Assembly: GCA_019973575.1 (NCBI GenBank) | Contig: BPUI01000002.1 | Location: 868,001 to 932,000, forward strand | DNA from: Gemmatimonadetes bacterium T265 | GTDB lineage: Bacteria; Gemmatimonadota; Gemmatimonadetes; Gemmatimonadales; Gemmatimonadaceae | Direction of reading: 5' to 3' | DNA: 64,000 nt | Part shown: positions 8,271-20,673 of the stretch, in pieces | Layout of the letters: each line of letters opens with the position of its first letter | Position numbering within the stretch: position 1 is the first letter of the stretch | Notes under the pieces: generated by a model | The model's input: the letters and a program-made list of their open reading frames with translations, nothing else | What the model was told of the DNA's origin: nothing | Database searches by the model: none | Program-made: the position numbers and the translations under genes

Positions 8271-11200
8271 TCACGCGGCGGCGCGGATCCGGCTCGCGAG
8301 CGGCGCGTAGTTCAGCGCGCGCGCGTGGACGAGCGAGCGGTGCAGCGTCGCCTCGGCCACGGGGCCCGAGGCGCGCAGCAGCGGCGCGCACTCGGCCGCG
8401 AGCCATAGCGCCGCGTACGGGTCGTGCCGCTCCGCCCGCTCGACGCGGTCGACGAGCAGGGCGGCCACCTCCGCACGCGGGCGCGGGCCCGCCGCCGCGA
8501 GGCGCACGTCCAGCGCGTCGCACAACTCGCGGTTCTGGAACCACCACGCCGCGCGCTCGGCAAGCAGCGCGCCCATCGCCGCCTGCCGCTCGCGCGCGCC
8601 CCGCACCGCGCCGAGGTCCAGCTCCGCGAGCCCGCCCCCGGCGAGTGCGCCGAGGTGGATGCCGGCCTGCCCGAGCGCCTCGGCGAGCGCGACGCACGCG
8701 GCGTAGAGCTCCAGGGCGCTCGCGGCGTCGCCCTGGGCGCGCGCGAGGTGCGCCAGGTTATACAGCGTGAACAGGCGCTGGGGTTCCATGCCGAGCGTCG
8801 TGAATAGCTGCCGCGCCTCCTGCAGCGACTCCTCGGCCTGCGCGAACCGGCCCGTCTTCAGCGACAACACGCCGAGGTTGATGAGCGCGGTCCCGATCGT
8901 GTTGCGGGTCCCGAGTTCGCGCCCGATCGACAGCGCCGTGTGGTAGGCGACCTCCGCGGCCGCGTGATTGCCCGAGCGGTCGCAGGCGATTCCGATGTGG
9001 CCGTGCGCGCGCTCCTGCCCGCGCCGGTCTCCGAGGCGCGTGTAGAGGTCGAGCGCTCGGCGGAAGTGCGGCACGGCGTCGGCCGGACTCGTCTCCTGCC
9101 GCCCCCCGGAGACGACTTCCAGCACGGTGAGGCCCATGCGCATCGCGGCCGCCGCGTGCAGCGCCAAGTCGGGCAGGCGGTCCGCTTCGGCGACCGCTTC
9201 GGCGGCGCGGCGTTCCGCGTCGGCCGCGTCTCCCAGGCGCGCGTGCGCGTCCGAGCACATGATCAGCAGCCAGACGGCCTCGTCGGCGTTGCGGGCCCGG
9301 CGCGCGTCGTCGAGCAGCGCGAGGCAGCTCGCGAGCACATCCTTCACGGGCTCGCCGCGGTGCAGCCGCAGCCGCTCGCGCATGCGGCGGACCGCGCCGA
9401 CGACCCCGAGTGCGACGGCGCCGTCGGCGAGGTCCGAGAGCAGCGCGTCGCATTCCGCCATCGCCTCCGCGTGGTGCCCCCGCACTTCGGCCACGGCGGC
9501 GGTCCGCCACGCGACGTCGGCCACCTCGGGGAGCGCGCGCGCGTGCCGCCGCGCGACCGCGAAGAGTTCGGCCGCGCTGTCGTACGCGTGTGCGGCCGCG
9601 GCGCGCGCGCCGGCTTCGATCGACGTGCGGAAGGCGTCGGCGCCGCAGCCCGCGCGGTCGAAGTGTCGCGCCACGGTCGCGGCCGACGCGTCGCCGCGCG
9701 ACTCGAGCGCGCGGCCGACGCGCTCGTGCACGCGCCGCAGGCGGAGCGGGTTCACACCCGCCTGCAGAACGCGCGGCAGCAGCGCGTGCGAGAAGGTGAG
9801 GGCCGTGGCCGAACGCGGCGACGGCATGAGCACGGCCGCTTCGATCCCGGCGTCGAGCGCGTCGATCACCTCGTCCTCGTCGCGGCCGCACGCGACGGCG
9901 AGCGTTTCGGCGTCGAAGTCGCGCCCGAGGACGGCCGCGACGGCGAGGACGTCGCGCCGCGCGCGGCTCAGCCGCGTGATGCGGCGGGCGAGCAGGTCGT
10001 GGACCGCGCGCGGCAGCGGCGCGTCGTGCGGCCCGCGCGCGGCCGCCGCGTCGAAGGTCCACCGCCCGTTGACGGCGCGGAGCTGGCCGCCGTCGGTGAT
10101 CGCCCGAAGCGTGTGGACGACGAACAGCGGGTTGCCCTCGCTCTGCGCGACGAGGTAGGCGACGAGCGCGGGGTCGGGCGTCTGACCGCCGAGTGCGGTG
10201 CGGAGCCACTGGCCGAGGTCGTCCGGCGCGAGGCGCGCGAGCGGAATCTCGGTGTAGCGGCCCGAGCGCGAGAGGCGCGCCCGCCGCACGTCGCCGGTTT
10301 CGTCGAGGTCCTCCGCGCCGATCGCGAGGCAGAGCAGCAGCCGTTGGTCGGTGAGGCGCGCCGCGAGGAATTCGACCGCCTCCCACGTCCCGGTGTCGGC
10401 CCACTGTGCGTCGTCGATGATGACGGCGAGCGGGCGCGCCGCCGTGATCAACGAGAGAAATTGCTGTAGTTCGTCGAGCAGCGCGTACGACGACCCGACG
10501 CTCGCGACGCCGCGCGTTGCGGTCGACGCGGGCGCGTCGGGCGCCTCGGCAAGCTCGGGGACGAGGCGCGTCAGCTCGCGCCAGGGACGGTGCGGTGCGA
10601 GTCCCGCGCGCCACGCCGCGAGGACGACGTCCGCCCACGGGCCGTACGGCGGGCGCACGTCGGCCTCGATGCAGCGCCCCACGAGCAGCGAGCCCGCGCG
10701 TACGCCGACGTCGGGCGCCAGCTGCTTGAGGAACGCCGACTTGCCCACCCCGGCCTCGCCAACGACCGCGACGACGTGCGGTTCGCCGCGGGCGGCCGCG
10801 TCGAAGACGCGGCGGAGGCGCTGCCGCTCCTCGGTACGTCCGACGAAGCACTCGAGCACGGCGTCGGCGTGTACGCCCGGTCCGGCAGTCCCGGCCCGGG
10901 TGACCGCGTCGCGCCCCGCGCGCTTCGCACCGTAGAGCGCGCCGTCCGCGGCCGCGAACAGCGCCTCGAGGGTCTCGCCGTGCTGCGGCGCGGTCGCGAC
11001 GCCGATCGAGAGCGTGACGCGCACACTCTCGCCGGTGCCGTCACGTCGCGGGCACGCCGCGCCGGACACGGTGGCGCGCAGGCGCTCCGCGACCGCCCAG
11101 GCCTCGTCGATCTGCGTCCCCGGGAGCAAGACGACGAACTCGTCGCCCGCGTAGCGCGCCGGAAGGTCGCTCGGGCGCGTGTTGGCGCGCACGTGGTCGG

Positions 11201-13298
11201 CCACGAGGCGCAGGACGCTGTCGCCCTGCAGGTGGCCGAACGTATCGTTGACGAGCTTGAAGTGGTCGACGTCGATGACGAGGAGCGACACCGGGCGCCC
11301 GGTCGTGCGTCGCGCGTCGAGGATGCGTTCGGCGGTGTCGCGGAACGCGCGGCGTAGCGGCAACTGCGTGAGATCGTCGGCCGCTTCGGCGGACGGGGCC
11401 GGCCGCTCGGCCGTGTCGGGCGCCGCGGTCGCCACTTCACCGGCCGTGTGGCTCGCGGGCGTCCCGGACGTCGTGATCTCGTTGTACCCGGCGTCGACCG
11501 GGTGCGTCGTCGTGTACGCGTCGGTCGGATCGGCGTCTGGGGCGCCGGCGCCGGCGCCGGTCGCGTCGATCGGCGCGGCGTGCTCGATCGCGTTGACGGC
11601 CGTCTCGAACCAGGCGAAGGACGTCGGGTCGAAGCGCGAGCCGACGTCCCGGCGCATGATCGCGACCGCGTCGTCGTGCGAGACCGCGCGCTTGTAGCTG
11701 CGCACGGTCGTGAGCGCGTCGTAGACGTCGGCGATGCCGAGGATGCGCGCGGTGAGCGGGATCGCGTCGCCGCGGAGTCCGCGCGGGTAGCCGCAGCCGT
11801 CCCAGCGCTCGTGGTGCGATTCAATCACCGCTCGCACGACCCACGGAAATTCGACCTCGGCCAGCATCTCCGCGCCGGCCGTCGCGTGCCCGCGCATGAG
11901 GGCCCATTCGGCGTCGCTCAGCGTGGCGGGCTTGTTCAGCACCTCGGCCGGTATCGAGAGCTTGCCGACGTCGTGCAGTAGCGCGCCGATGCGGAGCCAG
12001 TACAGGCCCTGCGCGTCGAAGCCGTGCGACGGCCCCGCACACGCGGCGATGGCGCAGGTGAGGTCGGCGACGCGCACGCAGTGTCCTTGCGTGTAGCGGT
12101 CCTTGGCTTCGGCCGACTCGCCCCAGCGCCGGGCGACGTGAAGGAGTTGCTCCTCGACGCCCGCGAGCTGCGGCGCGACGTCGCCCGTGTCGGGGCGCGC
12201 GCCGAGCTGTGTGAAGAGGCGGTGCGCGCGGTTGAGCTGCCGGAGCACCTCGCGCGTCTTCCCGCCGCGTTGGGCGAGTTCGGCCCGCTCGCGGGCGACC
12301 TCGGCCTGCACGAGCACGTCGCGGCACGCGGCGGCGACCTCGTCGGCGCGGAGCAGGTGGCGTTCGGCCTCCTCGGGATCACCCGTTTCGCGGGCGATGA
12401 TGCCGAGGAGCTTGGTCGCCGACCCGATGGCCGGGGCGTCGCTCGCGCGGGCGGCGACGTCGAGTGCGCGGCGCACCGCGGTTTGCGCCTGCGCGAACTC
12501 GCCCCGGCCGATCCAGACTTCGGCAAGGCGGACGTCGGCGCGGACGCGGCCGCGCAGGTCGCCGGCGACGTCGCTCATCCGGCCCGCCTCGAGCAACGCG
12601 CGTTCGGCGTCGGCCCACTCGTGAGCGGTCGCGTACAGCGCGCCGAGCCGCGCCAGCACGTCGGCCGACTCGCGGACGAGGCCGAGCGCGCGGTACTCCG
12701 TCAGCGCGACGTCGAAGTGCTGTTGCGCGGCGGCCCGGTCGCCGCGCGCACACGCGAGTGCTCCGATCTGCTCCGCCGCCTGCGCCGCGAGCTTGGGGGC
12801 TTCGGCGCGAAGGCCCGCGGCGCGCGCAGCGGCGTACACGCGCTCGGCGTCGTGCGGCGCGCCACCGCGCCACAGCGCTGCCGCCTGCAGCACGAGCGCT
12901 TCGGCGCGCGCGGCGCCGTCGTCGTGCAGTTCGGCGACGGCGAGTGCGGCGGTGAGGCAGTCGAGGGCGACGGCGTCGTCGGCGGGGCCCTGCGCGTTCG
13001 CGTCGTTCTGGTACGTGCGCGCGATCCAGCGGAGGATGCGCGGCGCCTCACGCGCGGCTTCGTCCGCGTCGCGCAATCGGTGCAGGGCGATCTCCAACGT
13101 CTCGCGCGCGGCCCGGGTTCGTCCCTGTTCTTCGTCCACCCGCGCCCGCTCGAGGAGCGCAGCGACCGACGGCTCGTCCTGCGGACCCGCCGAATCGCGC
13201 GGCTCTGGTGCGGACGTCGCGGTCCGCGGGGTGACGGCTGGTGACAAGGCGGGTATGCGGGCGGTCAGGACTTCGCCCCGAAACGGGGGCGGGAACAC
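8271..13298 (-). CDS. TPR / HD-GYP / GGDEF / AAA ATPase / TPR multidomain signalling protein
   Basis: 1675 residues with no membrane segment. Residues about 45-390 are TPR-like helical repeats. Residues about 400-560 form an HD-GYP domain with HDVGK (442-446), an HH pair (495-496) and GYP (503-505), as in c-di-GMP phosphodiesterases. Residues about 640-800 form a GGDEF domain with IDVDHFKLVNDTFGH, an AGDEF active site (717-721) and an RPSD inhibitory-site motif (708-711) five residues before it. Residues about 818-1150 are an AAA_16/STAND-type ATPase (Walker A GEAGVGKS 847-854, later VIIDDAQWAD). The rest is TPR-like. The key residues of both c-di-GMP domains look intact. The start is GTG at 13298; later starts are possible. 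It is monocistronic by layout, 39 bp upstream of marR. Confidence 0.9.
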   Translation of the reverse strand: MFPPPFRGEVLTARIPALSPAVTPRTATSAPEPRDSAGPQDEPSVAALLERARVDEEQGRTRAARETLEIALHRLRDADEAAREAPRILRWIARTYQNDANAQGPADDAVALDCLTAALAVAELHDDGAARAEALVLQAAALWRGGAPHDAERVYAAARAAGLRAEAPKLAAQAAEQIGALACARGDRAAAQQHFDVALTEYRALGLVRESADVLARLGALYATAHEWADAERALLEAGRMSDVAGDLRGRVRADVRLAEVWIGRGEFAQAQTAVRRALDVAARASDAPAIGSATKLLGIIARETGDPEEAERHLLRADEVAAACRDVLVQAEVARERAELAQRGGKTREVLRQLNRAHRLFTQLGARPDTGDVAPQLAGVEEQLLHVARRWGESAEAKDRYTQGHCVRVADLTCAIAACAGPSHGFDAQGLYWLRIGALLHDVGKLSIPAEVLNKPATLSDAEWALMRGHATAGAEMLAEVEFPWVVRAVIESHHERWDGCGYPRGLRGDAIPLTARILGIADVYDALTTVRSYKRAVSHDDAVAIMRRDVGSRFDPTSFAWFETAVNAIEHAAPIDATGAGAGAPDADPTDAYTTTHPVDAGYNEITTSGTPASHTAGEVATAAPDTAERPAPSAEAADDLTQLPLRRAFRDTAERILDARRTTGRPVSLLVIDVDHFKLVNDTFGHLQGDSVLRLVADHVRANTRPSDLPARYAGDEFVVLLPGTQIDEAWAVAERLRATVSGAACPRRDGTGESVRVTLSIGVATAPQHGETLEALFAAADGALYGAKRAGRDAVTRAGTAGPGVHADAVLECFVGRTEERQRLRRVFDAAARGEPHVVAVVGEAGVGKSAFLKQLAPDVGVRAGSLLVGRCIEADVRPPYGPWADVVLAAWRAGLAPHRPWRELTRLVPELAEAPDAPASTATRGVASVGSSYALLDELQQFLSLITAARPLAVIIDDAQWADTGTWEAVEFLAARLTDQRLLLCLAIGAEDLDETGDVRRARLSRSGRYTEIPLARLAPDDLGQWLRTALGGQTPDPALVAYLVAQSEGNPLFVVHTLRAITDGGQLRAVNGRWTFDAAAARGPHDAPLPRAVHDLLARRITRLSRARRDVLAVAAVLGRDFDAETLAVACGRDEDEVIDALDAGIEAAVLMPSPRSATALTFSHALLPRVLQAGVNPLRLRRVHERVGRALESRGDASAATVARHFDRAGCGADAFRTSIEAGARAAAAHAYDSAAELFAVARRHARALPEVADVAWRTAAVAEVRGHHAEAMAECDALLSDLADGAVALGVVGAVRRMRERLRLHRGEPVKDVLASCLALLDDARRARNADEAVWLLIMCSDAHARLGDAADAERRAAEAVAEADRLPDLALHAAAAMRMGLTVLEVVSGGRQETSPADAVPHFRRALDLYTRLGDRRGQERAHGHIGIACDRSGNHAAAEVAYHTALSIGRELGTRNTIGTALINLGVLSLKTGRFAQAEESLQEARQLFTTLGMEPQRLFTLYNLAHLARAQGDAASALELYAACVALAEALGQAGIHLGALAGGGLAELDLGAVRGARERQAAMGALLAERAAWWFQNRELCDALDVRLAAAGPRPRAEVAALLVDRVERAERHDPYAALWLAAECAPLLRASGPVAEATLHRSLVHARALNYAPLASRIRAAA

Positions 13299-13382: not shown

Positions 13383-14120
13383 TCACACGCGCCCGTCGCA
13401 CGACCAGTCAAGGCCGGCGTCGGCCCTCGCCGATCGTCCCAGGGCGCGAAAAAGCGGTGCGGCGGCGCGACCCCAGCTCACGTTGTACCCGCTGAAGTGC
13501 TTGATGCGACGGTACGCGACGCCCTGTGCCTGCGCGTACTGCGTGGTGAGCGTCGCGTCGGTCGCGCCCTCGTCGACGCAGCCCGTGATGGCCGACGTGC
13601 ACCACTGGATGACGGGTTTGGCCGTGGGGGAGCTGCTCGGCGCGGCGATGAAGAGCGAGGCGACCTTGCCGGGGACGAAGCGCACGTCCGGGCTGACGAC
13701 GGCGGAGCTGTTCCCGCTGCTGTTGGTCCACGCACGCACGGTGAACGACATCGACGTGGTGAGCGGGGTACACTTCGCGTCCCAGGTGGTCTTCCCGTAG
13801 CCCGAGGTGCGCGGGTCGCACACGGCCGCCGCCGGGATGTTCACCTGTGCGCGGTTCGCGAAGTTGATCGACGTGCCGGTCGCCGGGTTGTACGTGAAGG
13901 TCTGGATCAGCGTGTCGCCGCTGTACGCGACGACGTCGGCGCGCGGCGCGGCCGTCGGGGCCACGCGTGCGGTACGCGCCGGCGCGGGTTCGGTGACGCC
14001 GCCCTGCGAACAGGCGATGAAGCCGAGGAGGCCCGAGCAAGCGAGCACGTTGCCGAGCGCGACGGCCGCGTGACCGTCGCGGACGCGTCGCACGGTCGCA
14101 GCAATGTTGCGCAGTGTCAT
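13383..14120 (-). CDS. Putative secreted lipoprotein, function unknown
   Basis: About 245 residues. The N-terminus has a basic segment, a hydrophobic stretch (ALGNVLACSGLLGFIACS) and a lipobox-like FIAC, which points to export and lipidation. The mature part contains INFANRAQVNIPAAAVCDP, SGYGKTTWDAKC and a later VIQWCTS with paired cysteines. This pattern resembles a beta-rich extracellular domain often seen in high-GC soil bacteria; I cannot assign a function. An ATG at 14120 is preferred to the GTG at 14123. The last 25 residues are Arg/Ala-rich and may be poorly conserved. It follows the heme operon but is separated from it by a strong hairpin. Confidence 0.65.
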   Translation of the reverse strand: MTLRNIAATVRRVRDGHAAVALGNVLACSGLLGFIACSQGGVTEPAPARTARVAPTAAPRADVVAYSGDTLIQTFTYNPATGTSINFANRAQVNIPAAAVCDPRTSGYGKTTWDAKCTPLTTSMSFTVRAWTNSSGNSSAVVSPDVRFVPGKVASLFIAAPSSSPTAKPVIQWCTSAITGCVDEGATDATLTTQYAQAQGVAYRRIKHFSGYNVSWGRAAAPLFRALGRSARADAGLDWSCDGRV

Positions 14121-14200
14121 CACGCGCGTCTCAGAGGTGCTGGAGGGGACCGATGTCGGGCGTCGCTTCTGCGCGGCGCCTCGGGCTCCAGCTTCGGCAG

Positions 14201-14256: not shown

Positions 14257-15591
14257 TCAGCCGCGCGCCGCCGCGACCTCCGCGAACGCGACGTCGAGCG
14301 CCGCGCGCGTCGCGCCGAACGTCGCCTCGTCGTGCGCGACGGAGAGGAAGTTGGCCTCGTACGCGGACGGGGCGAGGTAGACGCCCTGGCCTAACATCGC
14401 GTGGAACAGGCGAGCGAAGGCGGCCGCGTCGGAGGTGCGCGCCGCGGCGTAGTCGGCGACCGGGCGGTCGTTCAGGAACAAGCCCCACATGCCGCCGGCC
14501 GCGGCTGCCTGGACCGGGACGTCGTGGCGCGCGGCCGCGGCGCGGACGGCGTCGGCCAGCCGGACGCCGGCGGCGGCCATGGACTCGTACGCGCCCGGCC
14601 GCGCCATGACGCGGAGCGAGGCGAGGCCGGCCGCCATCCCTAACGGGTTGCCGGAGAGGGTGCCGGCCTGGTACACCGGGCCCGACGGCGCGACGGTGCG
14701 CATCACGTCGGCGCGGCCGCCGTAGGCCGCGACCGGGAGCCCGCCGCCGATCACCTTGCCGAGGCAGGTGAGGTCGGGCGTGACGTCGTAGGCGAGCTGC
14801 GCGCCGCCCCACGCGACGCGAAAGCCCGTCATCACCTCGTCGAAGATGAGCAGCGCGTCGTGCGCGGTCGCGAGGCGCCGCAGGCCGTCGAGGAAGCCAG
14901 GCGCGGGCGGGACGAGCCCCATGTTGCCCGCGACCGGCTCGACGATGATCGCGGCGACCTGGCCGCGGTTGGCCTCTAGCGCGGCCTCGGTCGCCGCGAG
15001 GTCGTTGAACGGGACGACGACCGTGTCGGCCGTCGCGCCCGGGGTGACGCCGGGGCTGTCGGGGAGGCCTAACGTGGCCACGCCGGACCCCGCCTTGACG
15101 AGCAGGGCGTCGGCGTGTCCGTGGTAGCAGCCGTCGTACTTGACGAACTTGGGGCGGCCGGTGAAGGCGCGCGCCACGCGGATCGCGCTCATCGTCGCCT
15201 CGGAGCCGCTCGACACGAAGCGGACCATCTCGACGCTCGGCAGCGCGTCGACGAGGACCGACGCCAGCTCGGCCTCCGCCTCGATCGGCGCGCCGAAGCT
15301 CGTCCCCGCCGCGACCTGCCGCTGGATGGCCTCGACGACCTCGGGGTGCGCGTGGCCCGCGGCGAGCGCGCCCCACGACATGACGTAGTCGACGTAGGTG
15401 GTGCCGTCGACGTCGGTGACGTACGGGCCGCGGCCGGCGCGCATCACGCGCGGCGTGCCGCCGACGGCGCGGAAGGCGCGCACGGGGCTGCTCACGCCGC
15501 CGGGGATGACCTCGCGCGCGCGGGCGAGGACCGCGGCGGAGTGCTCGACCGGGGTCGTATCGACGGGCGCGGGGGAGACGAGCGTGCTCAC
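14257..15591 (-). CDS. hemL: Glutamate-1-semialdehyde 2,1-aminomutase
   Basis: 444 residues, family-typical length. This PLP enzyme converts glutamate-1-semialdehyde to 5-aminolevulinate, the second dedicated step of the C5 heme pathway. Motifs: VIPGGVSSPVRAFRAVGG near the N-terminus, SSGSEATMSAIRVARAFTGR, YHGHAD, IIVEPVAGNMG, LLIFDEVMTGFRV, and the PLP lysine in CLGKVIGGGLP. GNPLGMAAGL and the C-terminal GVYLAPSAYEANFLS are also as in HemL. The GTG start overlaps the hemB stop by 4 bp (GTGA). It is the last gene of the heme operon and is distinct from the diverged paralogue at 54250. Confidence 0.97.
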   Translation of the reverse strand: MSTLVSPAPVDTTPVEHSAAVLARAREVIPGGVSSPVRAFRAVGGTPRVMRAGRGPYVTDVDGTTYVDYVMSWGALAAGHAHPEVVEAIQRQVAAGTSFGAPIEAEAELASVLVDALPSVEMVRFVSSGSEATMSAIRVARAFTGRPKFVKYDGCYHGHADALLVKAGSGVATLGLPDSPGVTPGATADTVVVPFNDLAATEAALEANRGQVAAIIVEPVAGNMGLVPPAPGFLDGLRRLATAHDALLIFDEVMTGFRVAWGGAQLAYDVTPDLTCLGKVIGGGLPVAAYGGRADVMRTVAPSGPVYQAGTLSGNPLGMAAGLASLRVMARPGAYESMAAAGVRLADAVRAAAARHDVPVQAAAAGGMWGLFLNDRPVADYAAARTSDAAAFARLFHAMLGQGVYLAPSAYEANFLSVAHDEATFGATRAALDVAFAEVAAARG

Positions 15592-16658
15592 GGCTGGCCC
15601 TCGCCCTCGCGGATCCAGCGGGCGGCGTCCCGCGCGTAGTACGTGATGACGAGGTCGGCGCCCGCGCGGCGGATCGCGACGAGCGACTCGAGCGCGGCCT
15701 TCCGCCGGTCGAGCCAGCCGCGCTCGGCGGCCGCTTCGAGCATCGCGTACTCCCCGCTTACCTGATACGCGGCGAGCGGGAGCGCGCTCTTCCGGCGGAT
15801 GCGGTAGATCACGTCGAGGTAGGCGCCGGCGGGCTTGACCATCAGCATGTCGGCGCCTTCGACGACGTCGCGCATCGACTCGCGCACGGCCTCGCGCGCG
15901 TTGCCGGCCGGAAGCTGGTGGCCCGCGCGGTCCCCGAACGACGGCGCCGACGCGACCGCCTCGCGGAACGGGCCGTAGAACGCCGAGGCGAACTTGGTCG
16001 AGTACGAGAGGATGGCGACGTCGTGATGGCCCTCGGCGTCGAGGGCCGCGCGGATCGCCGCGACCTGGCCGTCCATCATCGCGCTCGGCGCGACGACGTC
16101 GACGCCCGCGTCGGCGTAGGCCACGGCGGCCTGCCCGAGCAGCGGCAGGGTCGCGTGCAGGTCGACCGCGCCGGACCCGTCGAGGGCGCCGCAGTGGCCG
16201 TGTTCGGTGTATTCGCAGAGGCAGACGTCCGCGATGACGAGCAGCTGCGGACGCCTCGCCTTGATCGCGCGGATCGCGCGCGGGACCGGTCCGTTAGGCG
16301 CGAACGCGCCGGTGCCGCACGCGTCCTTCGCGTCGGGGATGCCGAAGAGGAGGACGGACTGCAGCCCGTCGGTGACGACCGCGTCGATCTCCTGCTCGAG
16401 CCGGTCGACGGTCCACTGCGCGTGGCCGGGCAGCGAGTTGATTGGCCGGACGATGTCGACGCCGTCGCGTACGAAGAGCGGGAGCACGAGGTGCTCGGGG
16501 CGGAGCGAAGTTTCGGCGAGCATGCGGCGCGCCGCCGGCAGCTGACGGAGACGGCCGACGCGGCTTGCGGCGGCAGCAGCCCGCGGTGCGACGGGCGAGG
16601 GCGCGGCGTCGCGGGGCGGCGCCGCGGGCGCAACGAAGCGGTCGATGATCGTAGACAT
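15588..16658 (-). CDS. hemB: Delta-aminolevulinic acid dehydratase (porphobilinogen synthase)
   Basis: 356 residues. Condenses two 5-aminolevulinate molecules to porphobilinogen in the cytoplasm. The zinc site is visible as DVCLCEYTEHGHCG (Cys 146, 148, 156), which indicates a Zn-dependent rather than Mg-only type. The Schiff-base lysines are in SYSTKFASAFYGPFRE and MVKPAG. A run of about 30 Ala/Pro-rich residues precedes the conserved LRQLPAARRML, so the first 30 residues are probably disordered. It starts 16 bp after the hemD stop and overlaps hemL by 4 bp. Confidence 0.97.
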   Translation of the reverse strand: MSTIIDRFVAPAAPPRDAAPSPVAPRAAAAASRVGRLRQLPAARRMLAETSLRPEHLVLPLFVRDGVDIVRPINSLPGHAQWTVDRLEQEIDAVVTDGLQSVLLFGIPDAKDACGTGAFAPNGPVPRAIRAIKARRPQLLVIADVCLCEYTEHGHCGALDGSGAVDLHATLPLLGQAAVAYADAGVDVVAPSAMMDGQVAAIRAALDAEGHHDVAILSYSTKFASAFYGPFREAVASAPSFGDRAGHQLPAGNAREAVRESMRDVVEGADMLMVKPAGAYLDVIYRIRRKSALPLAAYQVSGEYAMLEAAAERGWLDRRKAALESLVAIRRAGADLVITYYARDAARWIREGEGQP

Positions 16659-16674
16659 CGGACTCGGGCGGAAG

Positions 16675-17523
16675 TCAGCGGGCCGGCAGCGGGTGCCGCC
16701 CCGACGTCAGACAGGTCAGGGTGACGCGGACCAGCGCGTCGTCGGTTGGTTCGGGGGCGACGGCCGCGACCCGCAGGCCGTGCCCGCGGCACGCCTCGGC
16801 CGTGGTCGGACCGATACAGACCGCGTCGCACGCCGCCGGCGGCAGGCCGGCCGCCGCGAACGCACGAACGAGCGCCCCCGCCGCCGACGGACTCGCCACG
16901 ACGACGAGGTCGAGCGTCCCCGCCGCGGCACGACCGGCGACGTCCGAGAGGGCGTCGGGGGGGGCGTCGACGGTGCGATACGCGATCACACGGTGCACCT
17001 GCGCGCCGCGCGCCGCAAGCACGGTGGGGAGCGCGTCGCGCGCGCGGTCGGCGCAGGGGAAGAGCACGCGCGCTCCCCAAAGGCTCGGGAGCGCCGCGGC
17101 GAGCCCGTCGGCCGTGTGCAGCGACGGTATCACGTCTACCCGGCCGAGCCGCGCCTGTGCCGCCCCCGCGGTCGCGGCGCCGACGACGCCGACGCGCGTC
17201 GTGGTCTCGTCAGCCAGCGCGAGGCCGAGCGCGTCGAGGCGGGCCGCGACGACGTCGACCGCGGCCGCACTCGTCAGGAGCAGCCAGTGATACGCGTGCT
17301 CGGGCGCGGCCGGGGCCGCGAGGCGGTGTAGTGCGGCGTCGAGCGCGTCATAGGTGGCCGGCGGCGCGACGGCGATGGCCGGCGCGGAGAGGACGGTCGC
17401 GCCGAGCGCTTCGAGCGCAGCGATGAGGCCGTGGGCGCGCTCGCGCGGGCGGGTGATCGCGACGGTCCGCCCCGCGAGCGGCGCGTCGCCTGGCGACGCG
17501 CCGGCGGGCATTGGTGGCGTCAA
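16675..17523 (-). CDS. hemD: Uroporphyrinogen-III synthase
   Basis: About 280 residues. Cyclises hydroxymethylbilane to uroporphyrinogen III with inversion of ring D. HemD proteins are poorly conserved, but the two-lobed pattern is clear: LAGRTVAITRPRERAHGLIAALEALG, LLLTSAAAVDVV, VGVVGAATAGAA, VLFPCADRARDALPTVLAARG, VVVASPSAAGALV, and CIGPTTAEACRGHGL near the end. The frame can start with TTG at 17523, giving a 4-bp overlap with hemC (TTGA), or with ATG at 17511. It lies between hemC and hemB, which supports the call. Confidence 0.93.
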   Translation of the reverse strand: MTPPMPAGASPGDAPLAGRTVAITRPRERAHGLIAALEALGATVLSAPAIAVAPPATYDALDAALHRLAAPAAPEHAYHWLLLTSAAAVDVVAARLDALGLALADETTTRVGVVGAATAGAAQARLGRVDVIPSLHTADGLAAALPSLWGARVLFPCADRARDALPTVLAARGAQVHRVIAYRTVDAPPDALSDVAGRAAAGTLDLVVVASPSAAGALVRAFAAAGLPPAACDAVCIGPTTAEACRGHGLRVAAVAPEPTDDALVRVTLTCLTSGRHPLPAR

Positions 17524-18476
17524 ACAGCGGTGGTGCCCGCGCCGCGCACGCCCGCGACCCGGAGCAGGACGTCGCCACCGTCGGCGAGCAGTCGCTCGGC
17601 GAGCGTGCGGCCGAGGGCGACGGCGTCGGCGGCCGGCGCCTCGGCGCGGCCGCGGACGGGCGTGTGCCCGAGGGTCGGGTCGAGCGCGCCAATCATCGCG
17701 TCGAGGCGGAGCGTGCCGTCGGCGCGGAGGACGGCGTGCGCGCCGGTCGGCGCGGTGCAGCCCGCGCCGAGTCGGGCGAGGAAGGCGCGTTCGGCGGTGA
17801 CGGCCGTGCGCGTCGGGAGATGGTCGAGCGGCGCGACCGCGGCGAGCGCGTCCGCGTCGTCGGCGCGGACCTCGATCGCGATTGCGCCCTGGCTGACCAT
17901 CGGGAGCATCGTGTCGGTGCTCAGATACTCGGTGATCCGGTGGCGCAGGCCGAGGCGATGGAGGCCGGCGGCGGCGAGAAGGATCGCGTCGTACTGGCCC
18001 TCGTCGAGCTTGCGGAGGCGCGTGTCGACGTTGCCGCGCACGTCGCGCACGTCGAGGTCGGGGCGGAGGGCGCGGATTTCGGCGGCCCGGCGCGGGCTGC
18101 TGGTGCCGAGGACCGCGCCGGCGGGGAGGTCGGCGAGTCGCGGGCCTCGGGTGGCGACGACGTCGCGCGGGTCCTCGCGCTCGGGGAAGGCGCCTAACGC
18201 GAACTCCGGCGCGAGCGTCGACGGCAGGTCCTTGCCGCTGTGGACCGCGACGTCGATGTCGCCGCGGCGGAGCGCCTGCTCCAGCTCGGCCGCGAACACG
18301 CCGCGCCCGCCGATGGCCGAGAGCGGCACGTCGGTGCGGACGTCGCCCTGCGTGGTGATGATCTGCACGTCGAACGCGCGCGCGGGCCAGCGCGCCCGGA
18401 GCGCGCCGACGACCTGCGTCGCCTGCGCGAGCGCGAGCTTGCTGCCGCGCGTGCCGACGCGCAGCGCGCGCGTCAT
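17520..18476 (-). CDS. hemC: Hydroxymethylbilane synthase (porphobilinogen deaminase)
   Basis: 318 residues from the ATG at 18476. Polymerises four porphobilinogens into hydroxymethylbilane. Conserved features: VGTRGSKLALAQ at the N-terminus, TTQGDVRTDVPLS, AVHSGKDLPS, GTSSPRRAAEIRALRPDL, the active-site RGNVDTRLRKLDEGQYDAILLAAAG, and the cysteine that carries the dipyrromethane cofactor in LGAGCTAPTG. The frame is open further upstream, but that part overlaps hemH in another frame and is not conserved. The start overlaps hemH by 4 bp (ATGA). Confidence 0.97.
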   Translation of the reverse strand: MTRALRVGTRGSKLALAQATQVVGALRARWPARAFDVQIITTQGDVRTDVPLSAIGGRGVFAAELEQALRRGDIDVAVHSGKDLPSTLAPEFALGAFPEREDPRDVVATRGPRLADLPAGAVLGTSSPRRAAEIRALRPDLDVRDVRGNVDTRLRKLDEGQYDAILLAAAGLHRLGLRHRITEYLSTDTMLPMVSQGAIAIEVRADDADALAAVAPLDHLPTRTAVTAERAFLARLGAGCTAPTGAHAVLRADGTLRLDAMIGALDPTLGHTPVRGRAEAPAADAVALGRTLAERLLADGGDVLLRVAGVRGAGTTAV

Positions 18477-19555
18477 GCCGCCGCGCTCGCGGCCGGCTCG
18501 GCGCGCGGCGCTTCCGCGCGCGGCGGCTCGGCGTTCTGGCGTGTTGCCACGCCTTCGGCGTGGATCGGCGACGCGCCCGCGGCCAGTTCGGCGCGGCTGC
18601 GCGTGGTCGGGGGCGGGGCGTCGACGCGGACCGTGTTCTCCCCCGCGACCGCGCGCGCGGCGACGTCGACGAGCGCGGCGACGAAGTCGGGGCGCACGTT
18701 GGGCAGCTCGGTGCGGCGGTAGGTGATCCCGAGCGCCTCGGCCTTGTGCTTCGCCTCGATGTCGAGGTCGTAGAGGATTTCGAGGTGGTCGCAGACGAAG
18801 CCGATCGGGACCTGGAGGACGTCGCGGACGCCCTCGTCGCGCAGCTGCGGGAGGAAGTCGAGGATGTCGGGGCCGATCCACGGCTCGCCCGTGGCGCCGG
18901 CGCTTTGCCACGCCCGGCGGTAGCCCGCGAGGCCCGCGCGCGCGGCGACGAGGCGCGCGCTGCTCTCGAGCTGCGCCTCGTACGCGTCGCCCCAGGTGCG
19001 GATGCGTTCGGGGAGCGAGTGCGCGGAGAAGACGACGGTGACGTCGTCGCGCTCCGACGCCGGCCACCGCGCGAGCTGGTCGCGCACCACGGTGGCCATC
19101 GTCTCGACGAAGCCGGGGTGGTCGTACCACTGTTCGACGAAGTCGACCGCGAACTCGACGTCGTGCTTGCGCATGCCTTCGAACAGGTAGCGCTCGTAGC
19201 CGCCGACGGAGAAGCGCGAGTAGTGCGGTGCGAGCACGACGCAGACGACGCGCTCGACGCCGTCGGCGGCCATCTGGGCGACCGCGTCGGCGATCCACGG
19301 CGTCCAGTGCTTCATCCCGACGTGGACCGGCACGTCGAGCCCGCGCGCGGCGAGCCCGGCCGCGACCGCCTCGCGCACCGCGTTCGTGAGGCGCGTGAGC
19401 GGGGTGCGGCCGCCGACCGCCTCGTAGCGGCGGCGCAGGTCGTCGACCTTTTCCGGCGACGGGGGGCGCCCGCCGCGGATGTGCGTGTAGTACGGCACGA
19501 CGAACTCGGGCGTCTCGGGCGTACCGTAGGCGAGCAGGAGGAGCGCGGTCTTCAT
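18473..19555 (-). CDS. hemH: Ferrochelatase
   Basis: 360 residues. Inserts ferrous iron into the porphyrin: protoporphyrin IX, or coproporphyrin III if the pathway is the coproporphyrin-dependent type. Motifs: LLLAYGTPETPEFVVPYYTHIRGG, GMKHWTPWIADAV, LAPHYSRFSVGGYERYL, the catalytic His in VVFSAHSLPERI, and GFVCDHLEILYDLDIEAK with the conserved acidic residues. The last 45 or so residues (after AGENTVRVDAPPP) are an Ala/Pro/Arg-rich extension not expected in the family, and its DNA carries a perfect palindrome (18547-18563). It overlaps hemC and hemE by 4 bp each. Confidence 0.96.
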   Translation of the reverse strand: MKTALLLLAYGTPETPEFVVPYYTHIRGGRPPSPEKVDDLRRRYEAVGGRTPLTRLTNAVREAVAAGLAARGLDVPVHVGMKHWTPWIADAVAQMAADGVERVVCVVLAPHYSRFSVGGYERYLFEGMRKHDVEFAVDFVEQWYDHPGFVETMATVVRDQLARWPASERDDVTVVFSAHSLPERIRTWGDAYEAQLESSARLVAARAGLAGYRRAWQSAGATGEPWIGPDILDFLPQLRDEGVRDVLQVPIGFVCDHLEILYDLDIEAKHKAEALGITYRRTELPNVRPDFVAALVDVAARAVAGENTVRVDAPPPTTRSRAELAAGASPIHAEGVATRQNAEPPRAEAPRAEPAASAAA

Positions 19556-20673
19556 GAGGTAGGCGACCCGTGTGGCGCGGCGGCCGCGGGGCGGGCGGGT
19601 TGTGGCCGGTGCGCGTGGACGACCTCGACGACGCGCTCGATCGCGGCGAGCGGGGTGTTAGGCAGGAGGCCGTGGCCGAGGTTGAATACGTGCCCCGGGC
19701 GGCCGCCGGCGCGGTCGAGGATGTCGCGCGTCTCCGCCTCGACGACGTCGAGCGGCGCGGAGAGCGTGGCCGGGTCGAGGTTACCCTGCACGCCCAGGTG
19801 GTGGCCGACGCGCGCCCACGCCTCGTCGAGCGGGACGCGCCAGTCGAGGCCGATCACCGTGCCGCCGTCGTCCTTCATCATCTCGAGCAGGTGCGCCGTG
19901 CCCGTACCAAAATGCACGAGCGGCACGCCGAGTTCCCGCAGCTCGGCGAAGATGCGCTGCGTGTAGGGCCGGACGTGGCGTGCGTAGTCGACCGCCGAGA
20001 GCGCGCCGACCCAGCTATCGAAGAGCTGCAACGCGTCGGCGCCGGCGGCCCGGTTCGCCTTGAGGAACGCGACGACGACGTCGACCAGCCGGTTCATGAG
20101 CGCGTCCCACACGTCGGGGGCGCCTAACATCAACGCCTTGGTGTGGACGAAGTCGCGCGTCGGCCTTCCCTCGATGAGGTACGAGGCGAGGGTGAAGGGC
20201 GCGCCGGCGAAGCCCAGGACGGCGCGGTGCGGCTCCAGCTCGCGGCGCACGAGGCGCACCGCCTCGATCACCGCCGGGACGTCGGCCTCGGCGTCGAGCG
20301 GGCGGATGCGCGCGACGTCGGCCATCGTGCGCACCGGGCGCGCGATCACGGGGCCGACCTTCTCGACGATGTCGAGGTCGACGCCGACCCCGACGAGCGG
20401 GAGCATGATGTCGCCGAACATCACCGCCGCGTCGAGGGGGAGGCGGCGCATCGGCTGGAGCGTGACGTCCGCGCAGACGTCGGGGATGCCGCAGATCTCG
20501 AGCAGCGTGTAGCGCTCGCGCACCTTGCGGTACTCCGGCAGGGTGCGCCCCGCCTGGCGCATGAACCAGACGGGCGTACGGTCGACCGGGAACCCGTGCG
20601 CGGCGCGCAGGAAGGGACCCGGGAGGGCGCCGGCCCGCGGGGCGGCGAGCGTGGCAGGGGTCGTGGTCGTCAC
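19552..20673 (-). CDS. hemE: Uroporphyrinogen decarboxylase
   Basis: 373 residues. Decarboxylates the four acetate side chains of uroporphyrinogen III to coproporphyrinogen III. The N-terminal signature TPVWFMRQAGRTLPEYR is exact. Others are VMFGDIMLPLVGVGVDLDIVE with the catalytic Asp, GFAGAPFTLASYLIEG, LFDSWVGALS, VIGLDWRVPLDEA, VQGNLDPATLSAP, and the C-terminal NLGHGLLPNTPL with the conserved His. The GTG start at 20673 overlaps the hemA stop by 4 bp. The C-terminal 20 residues are low complexity. Confidence 0.97.
   Translation of the reverse strand: MTTTTPATLAAPRAGALPGPFLRAAHGFPVDRTPVWFMRQAGRTLPEYRKVRERYTLLEICGIPDVCADVTLQPMRRLPLDAAVMFGDIMLPLVGVGVDLDIVEKVGPVIARPVRTMADVARIRPLDAEADVPAVIEAVRLVRRELEPHRAVLGFAGAPFTLASYLIEGRPTRDFVHTKALMLGAPDVWDALMNRLVDVVVAFLKANRAAGADALQLFDSWVGALSAVDYARHVRPYTQRIFAELRELGVPLVHFGTGTAHLLEMMKDDGGTVIGLDWRVPLDEAWARVGHHLGVQGNLDPATLSAPLDVVEAETRDILDRAGGRPGHVFNLGHGLLPNTPLAAIERVVEVVHAHRPQPARPAAAAPHGSPTS

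Follow-up and report, generated by a model that had tools for sequence, protein, structure and literature searches.

STAND NTPases with a TPR sensor are ADP-bound monomers at rest and become ATP-bound multimers on induction (PMC6468293). For GGDEF domains, one account states that dimerisation is required for catalysis (PMC7825114), and the HD-GYP domain of RpfG is cited as forming complexes with GGDEF proteins through the GYP motif (work cited in PMC4159591). How bifunctional c-di-GMP proteins choose between their opposed activities is a general open question. The protein described here joins both enzymes to an NTP switch; its two halves occur separately in relatives, so that each half offers its own test of gating. 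A literature search found no paper combining Gemmatimonadetes, c-di-GMP and HD-GYP.

The window, a stretch of 64,000 nucleotides of Gemmatimonadetes bacterium T265, contains the following gene, which was recognised from its open reading frame, Pfam matches and codon-position GC:

8271..13298, minus strand: whole gene, TPR / HD-GYP / GGDEF / AAA_16-STAND / TPR

The reading frame runs unbroken from a GTG start at 13298 to 8271 and encodes 1675 amino acids. Codon-position GC is 0.80/0.54/0.92 and every tenth of the gene is coding-like. No obvious ribosome-binding site precedes the GTG. Because residues 1-39 are unconserved and disordered (AlphaFold2, homologue comparison), the start codon is uncertain, and translation may begin as much as ~45 residues downstream. 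The sequence-only reading had placed five domains on one 1675-residue chain, without naming its strand, and the uninterrupted frame together with the Pfam matches bears this out. A frameshift or an assembly fusion of two genes is ruled out by 33 other fused homologues, all from Gemmatimonadaceae genomes, which span the same domains (2 of the 33 are shortened); the homologue from genome G015 is 56% identical across residues 15-1673 in a single open frame.

An Rfam search of the window matched neither a riboswitch nor any other known RNA. Elsewhere in the window a haem biosynthesis cluster occupies 14257-20673 on the minus strand (hemL, porphobilinogen synthase, hemC, hemH and hemE by NCBIfam; 16675-17523 is likely hemD, judged from its position only). 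The segment 250-6025, also on the minus strand, carries an error-prone DNA polymerase gene (NF004225) preceded by two open reading frames placed like imuB and imuA, neither of which has a Pfam match.

The N-terminal half consists of these parts:

12204..13166, minus strand: N-terminal TPR superhelix, residues 45-365 (AlphaFold2, Foldseek, Pfam TPR_MalT)
12102..12197, minus strand: long helix, residues 368-399, linking the TPRs straight to HD-GYP (AlphaFold2)
11580..12101, minus strand: HD-GYP domain, residues 400-573 (Pfam, alignment to PmGH)
11391..11576, minus strand: disordered linker, residues 575-636, joint of the phosphodiesterase-cyclase fusion (AlphaFold2, unfused relatives)

The AlphaFold2 model of residues 1-812 has a mean pLDDT of 84.7, with most of the superhelix above 90; Pfam recognises a MalT-like TPR stretch at residues 213-365, and the Foldseek matches of these TPRs are those of LGN/Pins. 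Pfam HD_5 matches residues 406-559 (7e-34). The site residues are D400, H406, H442, D443, K446, H471, H495, H496, GYP503-505, D524 and D527. With metal-ligand roles taken from PMC4159591, seven of the eight PmGH ligands are kept (H406, H442, D443, H471, H495, H496 and D524), and the alignment to PmGH also places the catalytic Asp-Lys pair, D400 and K446. The position of PmGH Glu185 is taken by Y402, so that the carboxylate of the trinuclear E/D-T-G subfamily is absent there; we therefore assign the domain to the Y/F subfamily, which is predicted to be binuclear (PMC4159591). The linker of 62 residues has a pLDDT below 50, and unfused relatives stop or start at about this point.

The C-terminal half is divided as follows:

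10908..11381, minus strand: GGDEF diguanylate cyclase domain, residues 640-797 (Pfam, motifs, structural match)
11136-11150, minus strand: AGDEF717-721 (motif)
11166-11177, minus strand: I-site RPSD708-711 (motif)
10332..10847, minus strand: AAA_16/STAND nucleotide-binding domain, residues 818-989 (Pfam, motifs, Foldseek match 6mfv)
10728-10763, minus strand: Walker A, VGEAGVGKSAFL (motif)
9774..10331, minus strand: remainder of the STAND core with the arm-like region, residues 990-1175 (invariant alignment columns)
8274..9761, minus strand: C-terminal TPR superhelix, residues 1180-1675 (Pfam, AlphaFold2, structure comparison)

Pfam GGDEF matches residues 640-797 (6e-41). The metal-binding D676 is present along with N684 and D693, and RPSD stands five residues ahead of AGDEF, which is the spacing of an I-site. 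The predicted fold superposes on 3ign over 165 residues (VIA Z 26.8, rmsd 1.4, 36% identity). AAA_16 (residues 818-989, 8e-26) contains a conserved Walker A GEAGVGKS and Walker B LAVIIDD. In residues 990-1175 the motifs EGNP, which we take to be a STAND GxP-type motif, and FSH fall into invariant columns; model confidence is partly low here, namely at residues ~1090-1175, where the winged helix or arm would be expected. TPR_12 is found in the C-terminal region (3e-22). The model of residues 625-1675 (mean 81.7) shows the GGDEF domain and the NTPase, then the stretch of poor prediction, and last the long superhelix of TPRs. The top PDB match of this half is 6mfv (PH0952, a STAND protein with a TPR sensor; Foldseek 4.6e-11), of which only parts superpose (TM 0.34 by target length, rmsd 23.7). 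The C-terminal TPRs align with Rap 8rte (Z 26.1, rmsd 4.6), and the TPRs of LGN score higher.

The motifs HDVGK, HH, GYP, AGDEF and RxxD named from the letters alone thus recur as HD442-443, K446, HH495-496, GYP503-505, AGDEF717-721 and RPSD708-711. Profile HMMs recover both HD_5 and GGDEF, and structure prediction confidently folds the N-terminal superhelix, HD-GYP and GGDEF, followed by the NTPase and the C-terminal TPRs. The further claim that both catalytic domains look competent agrees with the alignment of all 34 fused proteins, since HD, HH and GY of the HD-GYP domain (the GYP proline is missing in 2), a GGDEF-type signature with the metal Asp (GSDEF in 3) and the Walker A Lys are kept in every one; Walker B is conserved in all of them as well, and RxxD in 24. 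From this conservation there is good reason to expect that both enzymes would be active in some state.

The two halves are also found as separate genes, TPR-HD-GYP of ~540-640 aa and GGDEF-AAA-TPR of ~1030-1150 aa. TPR-HD-GYP alone extends to other families of the same order and class; fused forms are confined to Gemmatimonadaceae in the samples searched, among them a phylum-level homologue sample (n=60). In the named-genome scan all named full-length matches are from Gemmatimonadota, and no full-length homologue from outside this phylum is among the matches listed. In a tree of the C-terminal half the fused proteins lie on one side of a single branch (support 99), so that one fusion or one fission is enough to explain them. 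The window genome has two paralogues, TPR-HD-GYP proteins with a decayed GGDEF domain that retains RxxD, and these form a clade with two other proteins beside the group of the window protein.

Across 16 genomes from other lineages, GGDEF and AAA parts mostly lie on separate proteins. The Anaerolineales protein L165 has GGDEF-AAA_16-(NB-ARC/AAA_22)-TPR on one chain, and in L161, L053 and L169 the AAA_16-TPR module is joined to a Ser/Thr kinase or BTAD domain. From these domain assignments the layout of output, STAND and TPR is general, and the addition of TPR-HD-GYP is lineage-specific as far as searched. The architecture survey therefore bears out only part of the singularity attributed to this protein: in the samples searched the fused form occurs only in Gemmatimonadaceae, but GGDEF-AAA_16-TPR exists in Anaerolineales, and a survey of 2013 already has HD-GYP with TPR and with GGDEF in its domain key (PMC4159591). 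A soluble-adenylyl-cyclase-like origin was also considered and dropped, the resemblance being one of layout only and the literature search unhelpful.

Decay of the sites was followed across the family. All four TPR-HD-GYP-GGDEF proteins without AAA have a degenerate GGDEF domain, and the Walker A Lys is lost in 6/7 unfused proteins with a degenerate GGDEF domain but in none of the 38 proteins whose GGDEF domain is intact; each of these two groups is a single clade. Both patterns fit a coupling of cyclase and NTPase, with about two events behind them. As proof of coupling the co-loss had to be downgraded: the tree reduces it to one event plus one independent pair, and a single event gives no statistical proof. 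The unfused GGDEF-STAND-TPR proteins in which GGDEF site and Walker A Lys are both gone are L121, L122, L124, L125, L126 and L140; several of them still adjoin a type A lipoprotein gene (see below), which suggests a non-enzymatic role.

The neighbourhood, made up of lipoproteins and parts of a peptide importer, is the strongest functional clue. The features concerned, in the window and at other loci, are:

13383..14123, minus strand: gene of a type A HFSGY lipoprotein, 246 aa, upstream of the switch gene on the same strand
13485-13499, minus strand: HFSGY motif of this type A lipoprotein
L108:3532-4587 and L110:2695-3858: examples of type B lipoproteins, with ZU5 and HFS motif
L172:2-4575 (genome G022) and L176:1-4914 (genome G105): SBP_bac_5, two permeases and the fused gene, stop and start codons overlapping

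When the flanks of 30 fused loci were compared, one dominant common neighbour emerged, predicted exported lipoproteins with a lipobox Cys. They are of two types, both with an invariant HFSGY near the end. In type A the Ala-Cys of the lipobox is invariant (C38 in the window copy), and there is no Pfam match; the window's copy is of this type and gives no match to ZU5. Type B has ZU5, above the Pfam cut-off in L108 and L113 and weak in L029 and L037. The type A gene of the window ends 84 nt upstream of the switch gene, and no terminator-like site was found between the two. Genome searches gave 25 matches for type A, spread over 18 genomes, and 40 for type B, spread over 23; a family gene is no more than 2.5 kb away from 17/25 (0.12 expected) and 23/40 (0.16 expected) of them. 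The P-values calculated for this linkage take no account of relatedness. An HFSGY lipoprotein adjoins 30 of the 45 family genes, including all three members in the window genome; for the fused genes it is type A, B or both in 21/34.

Since the lipoprotein profiles derive from genes flanking fused loci, a fair test of linkage is given by the unfused loci, which did not enter them. A lipoprotein is present at 18/23 of these: type B lies upstream of 11/13 TPR-HD-GYP genes, and type A downstream of 6/10 GGDEF-STAND genes, with one further weak match. Chance neighbourhood can be rejected, as 8/16 type A and 16/32 type B matches not used for the profiles are linked as well. Six type A lipoproteins have no adjoining family gene, and their scanned neighbours are unrelated (histidine kinase, GidA, beta-propeller and others). 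At L041:6929-7960 and L174:3456-4502 a lone TPR protein of ~345 aa, which looks as if it were a split-off TPR sensor, lies between the type B lipoprotein and the TPR-HD-GYP gene. Since PIDD cleaves itself at HF/S after its ZU5 domain (PMC3210808), we make the testable guess that type B lipoproteins, which share ZU5 and the HFS motif with PIDD but are exported bacterial lipoproteins, might be cleaved at HFSGY.

The second common neighbour is SBP_bac_5, a binding protein of the oligopeptide/nickel type. The Pfam model detects 93 such genes in 23 genomes; for 15 of them a family gene is at most 2.5 kb away, where 0.34 would be expected. SBP_bac_5 stands beside 15/45 family genes, and the other 30, the window gene included, have none within this distance; one paralogue in the window genome has such a neighbour with a lipoprotein gene in between. 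In G022 and G105 the order on one strand is binding protein, permease, permease and fused gene, the last permease overlapping the start of the fused gene. On casual inspection no ABC ATPase gene was noticed next to these arrays. Peptide and nickel transporter profiles both match the binding protein and the permease, in each case below the curated cut-offs. Neither partner is obligatory next door, because 13/34 fused loci are without a lipoprotein and two thirds of the family genes (30/45) without SBP_bac_5.

We propose, at a probability of roughly 0.5 and judging from sequence and gene order, that the protein is a cytoplasmic STAND-gated switch that would both make and degrade c-di-GMP in the service of an envelope or import system. 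The C-terminal half is like the TPR-sensor STAND ATPases (6mfv), which makes NTP-dependent oligomerisation the natural gating model; here the suggestion of ligand- or protein-gated oligomerisation is plausible, and the singularity claimed along with it was overstated. The sequence-only reading had not noticed the separate existence of the halves, the missing eighth metal ligand or the neighbourhood. By this analogy to STAND ATPases, the balance leans towards a cyclase gated by the STAND module. In the resting state the core would be closed and monomeric, with the GGDEF domains apart and HD-GYP holding c-di-GMP low. Binding of a ligand or partner to the TPRs would let the core take ATP and multimerise, whereupon the GGDEF domains could form the dimers they need and synthesis would win, until c-di-GMP brakes the cyclase via the RPSD site. 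The signal or the output would be located in the cell envelope, as the envelope neighbours suggest. The TPRs would most likely read an imported peptide-like ligand or the state of the importer, and the lipoprotein would be a co-regulated surface partner. Such a peptide or importer signal, deduced from gene neighbourhood, is a tentative proposal with the odds somewhat against it. Once exported, the predicted lipoproteins are out of reach of cytoplasmic TPRs, which counts against direct contact. A rather improbable extension would be peptide signalling in a Gram-negative with c-di-GMP as output: HFSGY lipoproteins would be cut, perhaps autocatalytically at HF/S, and release short peptides, these would enter by Opp/Dpp-type import, and the TPRs would read them and flip the protein between destroying and making c-di-GMP. 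This extension rests on genetic linkages, each biochemical step being inferred.

Other explanations have to be set against this switch. The protein could be mainly an HD-GYP phosphodiesterase whose GGDEF domain senses GTP or c-di-GMP and has little synthetic output, a situation known from several GGDEF-EAL hybrids. The wide spread of the TPR-HD-GYP module speaks for this, as do the two paralogues of the window genome, whose GGDEF domains are degenerate yet keep RxxD; we consider it unlikely, as unfused GGDEF domains often decay, whereas metal Asp and signature persist in all 34 fused proteins. The retention of Walker A and B in all fused homologues likewise exceeds what would be needed if NTPase and TPRs served as a scaffold, holding the two enzymes at an envelope complex and creating a local c-di-GMP pool, with no NTP gating of the cyclase. 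This scaffold would agree with the linkage to envelope genes, with the disordered linker between the halves and with TPR folds like those of the protein-binding LGN/Pins, and we hold it to be improbable to the same degree as a mere phosphodiesterase.

Another cyclic dinucleotide such as 3'3'-cGAMP might be the substrate or product, given that, by sequence, the PDB entry closest to the HD-GYP domain is the 3'3'-cGAMP-specific phosphodiesterase 3 (5z7c). Enzymes of the Hypr type, which make cGAMP, have Ser at the position of PleD Asp344. In the alignment to PleD the window protein has Asp693 there, and the match to 5z7c may reflect mere general HD-GYP similarity, which makes this quite improbable. 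Even less probable is an anti-phage or conflict system with a STAND sensor and cyclic-nucleotide output, an idea that arises since a role in immunity has been proposed for many of the repeat-sensor STAND NTPases of bacteria (PMC8195603). A known defence system was not recognised, as PADLOC matched no specific model and gave only a generic TPR and a weak Cas3 match; moreover, the family has several dispersed paralogues per genome, is conserved across the Gemmatimonadaceae and has envelope and importer genes rather than effectors as neighbours.

As to the proposed STAND-gated switch, each half goes with an exported lipoprotein of its own type, and often a peptide-type importer is nearby as well; this points to a so far unstudied pathway from the envelope to c-di-GMP in Gemmatimonadaceae. 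With MalT and PH0952 (6mfv; PMC6468293) the protein shares Walker A/B, a GxP-type motif, an output ahead of the core and a TPR sensor behind it, but instead of a DNA-binding domain it carries a diguanylate cyclase as output, with HD-GYP and another TPR array ahead of it. The Anaerolineales protein L165 follows the same output-STAND-TPR plan with GGDEF directly ahead of AAA_16; it has a second NTPase (NB-ARC/AAA_22), and like L161, L053 and L169 it is without the HD-GYP half and the N-terminal TPR. The HD-GYP catalytic core is common to PmGH (4mcw), 5z7c and RpfG; the window protein differs in having Y402 in place of PmGH Glu185 and a TPR input rather than a receiver or GAF domain, and, unlike RpfG and its GGDEF partners, it has HD-GYP and GGDEF on one chain. 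It resembles the bifunctional GGDEF-EAL hybrids in its predicted opposed c-di-GMP activities on a single chain, but with HD-GYP instead of EAL and with an NTPase switch added. The RRNPP peptide sensors (Rap, PlcR, PrgX) work with Opp import. They, too, are cytoplasmic TPR proteins genetically tied to an oligopeptide-type importer; the likeness consists of this linkage and a generic match of the TPR fold, whereas the output here would be c-di-GMP, in a Gram-negative phylum.
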